Shown: positions 20,296 through 23,660 of the stretch, one piece after another
How the letters are laid out: every line of letters starts with the position of its first letter
Position numbering within the stretch: the stretch's first letter is position 1
Source: an uncultured Actinomycetes bacterium
Lineage (GTDB): Bacteria; Actinomycetota; Actinomycetes; Nanopelagicales; Nanopelagicaceae
Direction of reading: 5' to 3'
Assembly (NCBI GenBank): GCA_903834705.1
Contig: CAILKF010000042.1
Coordinates: 1-55,990, forward strand
DNA: 55,990 nucleotides
Made by a program: the position numbers and the translations under genes
The notes under the pieces: model-generated
Database searches by the model: none
The model's input: only the letters and a program-made list of their open reading frames with translations
What the model was told of the DNA's origin: nothing

Positions 20296-21383
20296 GCCCT
20301 AGGACAATAGTTTTTGCTGCAGGCGGCACTGCTGGCCACATCGAACCAGCCTTGGCAGTGGCAAAAGAGTGGAGAAGGCGCTTCCCATCCGATGAATGTA
20401 TCTTCATCGGAACCCAAGAAGGTTTAGAAAATACTTTGATCCCCCAATCAGGGTTTGCCTTGAAGAATATTACTAAAGTCGTGATGCCTCGTCGACTAGA
20501 TTTAGATTTGATTACCTTCCCACTACACATCTGGAAATCTGTGCGTCAAGCAAGAAGAATTAGTAGAGGCGCATCGTTGATTATTGGCTTTGGCGGTTAT
20601 GTGAGTGCGTCAGCATATTTAGCCGGTAGGCAGGAAAAAATCCCATTGGTCATTCATGATTCGAATGCAAAAATCGGGTGGGCAAATCGTCTCGGATCGT
20701 ATTTGACTAAGAATTTGGCAGTTTCGCGAGAGGTGCGCGATTCACGATTTTCAAACGCGACCGTTACAGGTCTGCCACTACGAGCAGATGTCCAAGAGGC
20801 AATTACGCAATCCGAATCTGATTGGGCCGGTGCCCGGCTTAGTGCAAAGAAAACAATGGGCTGGGAAACTGCACCGCACACACTGTTAATTCTGGGCGGA
20901 TCTCAGGGTTCGTTCTGGTTAAATAATGAAATTGCTTCAGTCTTACCTCAATTACAAGAGATGAACATTTCAATTTTGCATGCAGTAGGAGCTAAGAATT
21001 CGCTACCGGCCTCGACTGGAAATTATCGGGCAGTTTCATATATTCAAGACATGGCAAGCGCGTATCTGGCTGCAGACCTAGTTATTTCCCGTAGCGGAGC
21101 CGCAACATGTTCTGAAATCGAAGCACTTGGCCGCTTTGCATTATTTATTCCACTCTCGATTGGAAATGGCGAGCAAGCACTCAATGCCAAGAATCTTGTA
21201 GATTCAAGTCGTGCAACAATTGTTTCTCAGAAGTCATTCTCTGGTCAATGGTTGCTTTCGAATTTACCAGCGTTACTTGCAAAAGTGCACAGCGTGCCAA
21301 TGAATGGTCTTTCTGATGACCGAGATGCGGCAAGGAAAATTGCAAACATGATGGAGAGTGCCATGAAAAAGGAGGGAATGTGA
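20292..21383 (+). CDS. murG: UDP-GlcNAc--lipid I GlcNAc transferase
   Basis: FAAGGTAGHIEPALAVA, GFGGYVSASAYLAG, GGSQGSFWLN, RSGAATCSEIEALG. Confidence 0.96.
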   Translation: MSPRTIVFAAGGTAGHIEPALAVAKEWRRRFPSDECIFIGTQEGLENTLIPQSGFALKNITKVVMPRRLDLDLITFPLHIWKSVRQARRISRGASLIIGFGGYVSASAYLAGRQEKIPLVIHDSNAKIGWANRLGSYLTKNLAVSREVRDSRFSNATVTGLPLRADVQEAITQSESDWAGARLSAKKTMGWETAPHTLLILGGSQGSFWLNNEIASVLPQLQEMNISILHAVGAKNSLPASTGNYRAVSYIQDMASAYLAADLVISRSGAATCSEIEALGRFALFIPLSIGNGEQALNAKNLVDSSRATIVSQKSFSGQWLLSNLPALLAKVHSVPMNGLSDDRDAARKIANMMESAMKKEGM

Positions 21384-22768
21384 CAGTTTCCCTTCGAGAT
21401 TTTGCAGGCAAACGAGTTCATTTTGTGGGCATCGGCGGTACAGGCATGAGTGGGCTCGCGCGAATCATGTCAACGTATCCGATTGAAGTCACGGGATCAG
21501 ATATGAAAGAGTCTTCAGTTCTCACCGGATTGCGAGTTCTAGGGGCAACAATCTCGAGCCAACATCAAGCTGAGAATGTGAATGGTGCTGACTTCCTTGT
21601 CTATTCAAGTGCAATTTCGAAAACAAACCCGGAGATGATGAGAGGCAAAGAGCTGGGCATTCCGATTCTTTCACGGGCGCAGGCACTGAGCGCTTTGATG
21701 TCAGAATCGATTTCGATTGCAATTGCTGGCACGCACGGGAAAACGACAACAACGTCAATGTTGACGGTTGCCGCGCAAAGTTGCGGAGAAGATCCATCTT
21801 TCGCAATTGGCGGAACACTTAGCGCATCAGGTTCAAATGCACATAAGGGGACCGGAGAATTCTTTATCGTTGAAGCCGATGAGTCTGACGGATCTTTCAT
21901 TGAGTACCGCCCATATGGCGCGGTGATAACAAATATCGAACATGACCACGTTGACTTCTTTAAGACACCGGAATCGGTAATGGATGCATTCGCCTCTTTC
22001 GTCGACACAATTGCAACAGATGGATTCTTGGTTTATTGCGCAGATGATTCGGGTTCAAGCACTCTCGGAAACGCGTCAACGATTTCGCGCAAGATTTCCT
22101 ATGGGGTGAGTCCATCTGCTGATTTACGTATTGATTCCATCGAATTATTCCCACAAGGTTCAAAGGCTCGCGCATTGTGGAAAGGTAAATTGCTAGGCAC
22201 TATGGAGCTGCAAGTACCAGGCCATCACAATGTACTCAACGCATCTGCAGCGCTGGCTGGGGGATTGGCACTTGGATTACCTGGCGCTCAACTCATTGCC
22301 GGACTTGCAACTTTTCGGGGTACCGGACGACGCTTTGAATTAAAGGGGCAAGTTCAAGGAATTCGGGTCATCGATGATTACGGTCACCATCCCACTGAAA
22401 TTGAAGTAACCCTCACTACAGCAAAGCGTTACGCAACAGATGGACGAGTACTCGTTATTTTCCAGCCCCACAGATATTCCAGGACTCAAGCGTTCATTCC
22501 GGGGTTTGCGCGAGCATTAGATATAGCAGATCAAGCGTGGGTGCTAGAGGTGTACGGCGCTAGTGAACAACCAATCGCTGGAGTGAGCGCTGAATCTATA
22601 ACTCAATTAATGAAACATGGCGTATTCGAACCGAATTTTTTAACAGCTACCGATGCAGTAGTTGCAAAGGCGCGTCCCGGCGATGTCATCGTAACGTTAG
22701 GTGCCGGTGACGTCAGTTCCCTGGCCCCAATCATCGTAGAAGCGTTGGCCAAAAAATTTCAACCCTAA
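21380..22768 (+). CDS. murC: UDP-MurNAc--L-Ala ligase
   Basis: FVGIGGTGMSGLARIM, AIAGTHGKTTTTSML, VEADESDGSF, DDYGHHPTEIEVTL. Confidence 0.97.
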   Translation: MTVSLRDFAGKRVHFVGIGGTGMSGLARIMSTYPIEVTGSDMKESSVLTGLRVLGATISSQHQAENVNGADFLVYSSAISKTNPEMMRGKELGIPILSRAQALSALMSESISIAIAGTHGKTTTTSMLTVAAQSCGEDPSFAIGGTLSASGSNAHKGTGEFFIVEADESDGSFIEYRPYGAVITNIEHDHVDFFKTPESVMDAFASFVDTIATDGFLVYCADDSGSSTLGNASTISRKISYGVSPSADLRIDSIELFPQGSKARALWKGKLLGTMELQVPGHHNVLNASAALAGGLALGLPGAQLIAGLATFRGTGRRFELKGQVQGIRVIDDYGHHPTEIEVTLTTAKRYATDGRVLVIFQPHRYSRTQAFIPGFARALDIADQAWVLEVYGASEQPIAGVSAESITQLMKHGVFEPNFLTATDAVVAKARPGDVIVTLGAGDVSSLAPIIVEALAKKFQP

Positions 22769-23466
22769 CTGCTGCGAAGAGAAAACGAAAATCTCCACGA
22801 ACATTTTTTCGAATCGTCATCGCCAGTCTTGTACTGGCATCAATGGCGTATATCTTGGGATGGTCGCCATTGTTAACAGTTCAAGATGTGCAGGTATTTG
22901 GAGCACCAGATTCCCAGAGCGCGTCAGAAATTAAAAATCAATCCAACATTGTTGAGGGCGAAAAATTAGCGCGTCTAGAACCGCGAGTGACGCAACAACT
23001 GTTAGAAAAGAATAGTTGGATTAAAAGTGTGAAAGTAAGCAGAAATTGGTTAAACCGGAAAGTTGACATTCGAATTACCGCACGCTCTCCAATAGCAAAA
23101 CTCGGAGATCGCTATGTTGACCTCGAACGAAGAGTTTTCACAGCACAAGAGAGCTCGAAATTAACTTTGCCCACATTAAAAGCACCCACACTGAGCGCCC
23201 AGGAGTTCGCCATTGGGCTTCTCGTTTCTTTGCCCCCTGAAATTCGAAGAGAACTTCGTGTCTTAGAGGCAGAGAATCGAAACTCCGCAACTTTAACTCT
23301 GCACAATTCAAGAACGGGTTCTCCGCGTACCTTTACTGTGATTTGGGGAGATGAAAGCGCACTTGATTTCAAGGTAAAGGTGTACAAGGCACTACTGGAA
23401 CTTCCAGAAAATAAGAAAGTTTCGCTTCTGGATCTTTCGGCTCCTCATGCTCCGATAGTTAAATAA
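22756..23466 (+). CDS. ftsQ: Cell division protein FtsQ (POTRA domain); N-terminus extends upstream of the ORF-track ATG (22843)
   Basis: In-frame upstream translation ISTLTAAKRKRKSPRTFFRIVIASLVLASMAYILGWSPLLTVQDVQVFGA restores the basic tail + TM + POTRA layout; no ATG/GTG/TTG in frame between the upstream stop at 22708-22710 and 22843. First in-frame ATT is 22756. Confidence 0.85.
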   Translation: MSTLTAAKRKRKSPRTFFRIVIASLVLASMAYILGWSPLLTVQDVQVFGAPDSQSASEIKNQSNIVEGEKLARLEPRVTQQLLEKNSWIKSVKVSRNWLNRKVDIRITARSPIAKLGDRYVDLERRVFTAQESSKLTLPTLKAPTLSAQEFAIGLLVSLPPEIRRELRVLEAENRNSATLTLHNSRTGSPRTFTVIWGDESALDFKVKVYKALLELPENKKVSLLDLSAPHAPIVK

Positions 23467-23508: not shown

Positions 23509-23660
23509 AGAGATTCAGAATTTGCAATAACTGCGCATTCAAAAAGTTTTTTTCAGGTGAAAATCTTTAAAGAACAAGTTGAGGTATCTCTTCGTGTCGG
23601 TGTTTGATTCGCTTTCTCACCCCCTCTACGGTCGCCACACGCAGAGAGTTAACGCTAAAT

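Follow-up and report, generated by a model that had tools for sequence, protein, structure and literature searches.

The window, a stretch of 55,990 nucleotides from an uncultured actinomycete of the Nanopelagicaceae, carries genes in the order murG-murC-ftsQ-ftsZ. An in-frame TGA at 22708-22710 precedes the ftsQ frame, which then stays open from 22711 to a stop codon ending at 23466. Past this TGA, the first ATG, GTG or TTG in the frame is the ATG at 22843, which lies in the middle of the transmembrane (TM) segment; read 5' of 22843, the same frame encodes KRKRKSPRTFFRIVIASLVLASMAYILGW, a basic tail together with the remainder of the TM segment. An ATT at 22756-22758 overlaps the 3' end of murC by 13 nt. 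The ftsQ frame is -1 relative to murC, and the motif GCC AAA AAA TTT C at the junction reads in the murC frame. An earlier note on this DNA had pointed to the lack of any ATG, GTG or TTG between the TGA and 22843, to the candidate ATT within the end of murC, and to the -1 phase with an A6 run in the overlap; the sequence agrees with that description. The features of the junction are listed below, where G008 and G001 are the two closest species of the genus, with FtsQ proteins 64% and 63% identical to the query, respectively, and "the three species" are these two and our own.

21380..22768, + strand: murC (UDP-N-acetylmuramate-L-alanine ligase), an open reading frame with a GTG start and a TAA at 22766-22768; Pfam matches to Mur_ligase, Mur_ligase_M and Mur_ligase_C; syntenic in G008 and G001
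22739..22759, + strand: murC block GAA GCG TTG GCn AAA AAA TTT, lying just 5' of the ATT and spanning it; almost unchanged among the three species
22751..22756, + strand: A6 run, candidate slip site of a rival reading; A6 in G008, A7 in G001
22756..22758, + strand: ATT, proposed ftsQ start inside the last murC codons; no in-frame ATG, GTG or TTG upstream; same place in G008 and G001
22756..23466, + strand: ftsQ, 236 aa from the ATT, with basic tail, TM segment, POTRA and FtsQ C-terminal domain (Pfam, hydropathy)
22769..22842, + strand: basic tail plus the N-terminal half of the TM segment, coding sequence free of overlap (codon-position bias, BLOSUM score)

The protein started at the ATT matches the Pfam families POTRA_1 (1.7e-9) and FtsQ_DivIB_C (5.4e-6). 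Its N-terminal TM segment, POTRA domain, FtsQ C-terminal domain and position in the dcw cluster are those expected of FtsQ/DivIB, and the genome holds a single copy of ftsQ. The best 19-residue hydropathy is 2.02 from ATT 22756 versus 0.99 from ATG 22843; a start at 22843 would thus cut the TM segment, which bears out the view that this ATG halves the membrane anchor. In the intergenic region between ftsQ and ftsZ, we also observed a box, TCGTGTCGGTnnTTG (23592-23606), that recurs in 27 of the 30 family loci compared (the window and L001-L029). This box is a candidate regulatory site for ftsZ; the GACAC on its opposite strand is reminiscent of WhiA sites.

The DNA upstream of 22843 codes in the ftsQ frame, as had been proposed. 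From codon 6 to ATG 22843, substitutions among the three species were distributed 36:19:50 over codon positions 1:2:3. Over the same stretch, the ftsQ frame gave an amino-acid similarity (BLOSUM) score of 144, compared with 8 and 1 for the other frames. None of 5000 column permutations matched the ftsQ-frame score; when the basic tail was taken by itself, 10 of 5000 permutations scored as high. Selection acts at the protein level on the tail and TM segment encoded between the ATT and 22843. In a table of the window's genes against G008 and G001, ftsQ is, in our reading, the sole clear gene in which conserved coding sequence that overlaps no other gene extends far upstream of the first canonical start.

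Aligning the murC/ftsQ junction across close relatives had been suggested as a check, and the arrangement recurred. The genus sample comprised 21 species, with a readable junction in our species, G008, G001 and 17 others. Both G008 and G001 have an ATT at the identical position and the same 13-nt overlap with a TAA-ended murC. Neither has an ATG, GTG or TTG ahead of the basic tail, nor any such start that would preserve both basic tail and TM segment; a TTG at +51 in G001 falls downstream of the conserved tail. Between the stop codon upstream and the TM segment, the three species have no ATN or NTG codon in common other than the ATT. Two marks of AUU-class genes are therefore seen here: no in-frame ATG, GTG or TTG stands upstream of the essential N-terminal sequence, and the same codon occupies the same place in relatives, although the latter is partly forced by murC coding, since the ATT arises from the Lys-Phe codons AAA TTT.

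The three ATT species form one clade in the murC tree (support 100/100), so that a single origin followed by long maintenance is the simplest reading. A canonical ftsQ start is present in all 17 other readable species of the genus and in 69 further family loci. Thus, among 90 family loci inspected, 86 have a canonical start, three have the ATT and one (G181) has a probable 1-nt indel, and no ATT-type ftsQ start was seen in these loci beyond the three. In G181 an ATG stands just upstream, out of frame: the ftsQ frame of this locus (L112) is broken by one base just past the ATG, as judged against L111, probably through an assembly indel. Two other irregularities were observed in the sample. The ftsQ match at L026/L032 (G013:C90) is split over two frames, probably by an indel, and a second, divergent ftsQ in G009 (L031, G009:C84; 33% identity to the query) possibly reflects bin contamination. 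A contig scan of genomes for close relatives returned only G001. In another species, G004, MurC likewise carries a KKFQ motif close to its end, and the ftsQ frame reads ATT-TCA-ACT; the canonical ftsQ ATG of G004 lies 15 nt downstream of this ATT and overlaps the murC stop as ATGA. We infer that a simple route to the present state would be the loss, in the ATT clade, of an ATG like that of G004, with initiation falling back on the latent ATT.

We consider it likely that ftsQ starts at AUU 22756 (with fMet), most likely by way of ribosomes terminating on murC, and that FtsQ is expected to be scarce and sensitive to IF3. Since the AUU lies 13 nt ahead of the murC end, initiation most likely falls to ribosomes finishing murC: after terminating at the UAA at 22766-22768, they would move back by a few nucleotides and initiate again at the AUU. 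A conserved start within about 10-20 nt of the upstream stop is a mark of coupled gene pairs, and here the ftsQ start lies -13 to +13 nt from the end of the murC stop in 20/20 genus loci. Pairing with the Shine-Dalgarno (SD) region is mostly weak at ftsQ starts of the genus (-1.6 to -7.6 kcal/mol); at the three ATTs it is -4.0, -4.4 and -5.4 kcal/mol, values that assume the general actinobacterial sequence of the 16S tail. This strength does not rise above the murC background, 42% of murC positions being as strong, which makes a free-standing start less likely. Many AUU-class genes, though not all, offset the weak codon with a strong or extended SD; no such SD is present at the ftsQ ATT. Translational coupling, rather than recruitment of ribosomes by a strong SD, would then be the route, and FtsQ output would be tied to the translation of murC. 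An AUU with a weak SD would be expected to give low FtsQ output and sensitivity to IF3, as for infC. The expected IF3 sensitivity follows from work in E. coli, where excess IF3 inhibits both reinitiation without an SD and initiation at non-canonical codons (PMC2268962). For other non-canonical starts in E. coli, a 3-15-fold rise is reported in infC fidelity mutants (PMC5472188). A bolder version would have FtsQ come solely from ribosomes that terminate on murC and reinitiate at the AUU, such that the IF3 level and murC translation jointly cap division; in our opinion this is possible rather than likely.

The infC gene, which encodes IF3, has an apparent ATC start in 10/10 genomes checked (L044-L053), including the genome of the window (G000:C115). 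In the genus genomes checked, this ATC is preceded by AAGGAG, with an SD of about -9 kcal/mol, and infC of the three ATT species is without a canonical start near the N-terminus. The lineage thus appears to use near-cognate ATN starts, the putative infC ATC being a second case, and gene callers will mis-start infC in this lineage. The IF3 protein is an ordinary one; on comparison, a single residue, V85I, was specific to the ATT clade, with no sign of loosened discrimination.

We also looked at synonymous sites where the two genes meet. In the EALAKKF sequence at the MurC end, 6/7 codons are identical in the three species (P = 0.005 against a per-residue background), and the block ranks 43 of 3801 windows for codon identity. 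The background was the codon identity at conserved residues in orthologues of the three species, around 20% for Ala and Leu and 40-50% for Lys, Phe and Glu. This identity hints at a modest constraint at the nucleotide level, which would be compatible with a translation start as well as with a slip site.

The latter possibility would be a programmed -1 frameshift: ribosomes slipping on AAA AAA close to the murC end would yield a MurC-FtsQ fusion and leave FtsQ without a start of its own. The frame relation is the required one, ftsQ being -1 to murC and open through the junction; the three species agree in AAA AAA TTT, and a fusion would be topologically possible, joining cytosolic MurC to the cytosolic tail of FtsQ. 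All three species contain an A_AAA tetramer. However, a conserved slippery heptamer of the form X_XXZ_ZZN is not found, A_AAA_AAA being present only in G001: the one position of the block that varies, directly ahead of the paired Lys codons, holds C, G and A in the three species. In E. coli, A_AA.A is the weakest active tetramer and depends on a strong stimulator; tetramers without one are barely or not shifty (PMC4066793). Downstream structure is inconsistent (z = 0.6, -0.05 and -1.98), with no common fold among the nearby structures searched. Furthermore, a KK(F/Y) end of MurC is frequent across the genus even where no shift is called for, and its Lys-Lys codons account for the A-run. We consider such a frameshift unlikely. 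The earlier note had left an ATT start and a -1 slip as alternatives; initiation at the ATT, found in three species, is the better supported, and a slip is disfavored by the lack of a common heptamer or structure and by a run of only 6-7 As.

Alternatively, FtsQ could start elsewhere: truncated from ATG 22843, at some other, non-ATN codon of the tail, or, in G001, at the TTG at +51. The ATG has in its favor that it is a canonical codon, but a start there destroys the TM segment and the codon is absent from G008 and G001. A start at the G001 TTG would retain a TM segment, yet the tail 5' of it is itself coding by the permutations of the tail given above, and no second near-cognate codon is common to the three species. 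We judge these alternative starts improbable.

An RNA polymerase that slipped on the A-run, adding one A in some transcripts, would also fuse murC to ftsQ. An A6 or A7 run is indeed present at the junction in all three species. Productive polymerase slippage usually needs about 8-9 As, so that 6-7 are short for it, and the Lys-Lys codons already explain the run; this reading is very improbable.

Finally, that a sequencing or assembly error conceals a canonical start is hardly credible and was rejected: the window comes from a 124-contig assembly and errors do occur near homopolymers, a point suggested by the G181 ftsQ with its probable loss of 1 nt, but the identical arrangement, with the ATT in the same place, is found in two separate genomes of other species (G008 and G001), and all three species have an intact, colinear murC end, which excludes the indel, or the canonical start in relatives, that the earlier note had named as refuting its case.

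Genuine AUU starts are very rare: one reconstruction found a switch to AUU at 1/61,358 ancestral AUG and 1/5,080 GUG starts (PMC5622118). If true, initiation of ftsQ at AUU 22756 would be an example of an AUU fixed in an essential division gene, outside the regulators of translation and stress, and it would suggest that coupled reinitiation lets a non-canonical start be tolerated without a strong SD. In practice, gene callers limited to ATG, GTG and TTG would truncate FtsQ inside its membrane anchor. Our literature search for a non-canonical ftsQ start or a murC-ftsQ fusion found nothing relevant.

Judged on the comparative sequence data, the lack of a canonical start in this essential division gene is real and conserved; its best reading is initiation at AUU coupled to murC, which would place ftsQ with infC, pcnB and sigR among the known non-canonical starts. 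The pcnB gene of E. coli has an AUU start, as proposed here for ftsQ, and, to go by the title of Binns and Masters 2002 (cited in PMC13009471), this AUU reportedly limits its expression. The infC gene starts at ATT in E. coli and at ATC in Streptomyces (PMC5472188). Like the ftsQ ATT, it is a case of a non-canonical ATN start conserved across a lineage, but infC has a strong SD and encodes its own repressor, whereas ftsQ has a weak SD and overlaps the upstream gene. An AUU start is also known at cvfC1 in S. aureus, where non-canonical starts carry extended SDs (PMC13009471), unlike the ftsQ ATT. Within the actinobacteria, Streptomyces sigR, repressed by IF3 (PMC5472188), has a non-canonical start, a product that is kept low and a history of mis-annotation, as proposed for ftsQ; sigR, however, uses GTC, encodes a stress sigma factor and is experimentally proven, while ftsQ would use ATT and belongs to the divisome. 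A parallel in mechanism would be the reinitiation coupling described in E. coli (PMC2268962), which shares with ftsQ a start beside the upstream stop, a weak SD and an expected sensitivity to IF3; the reporter in that study reinitiates at AUG, whereas at ftsQ reinitiation would take place at AUU.
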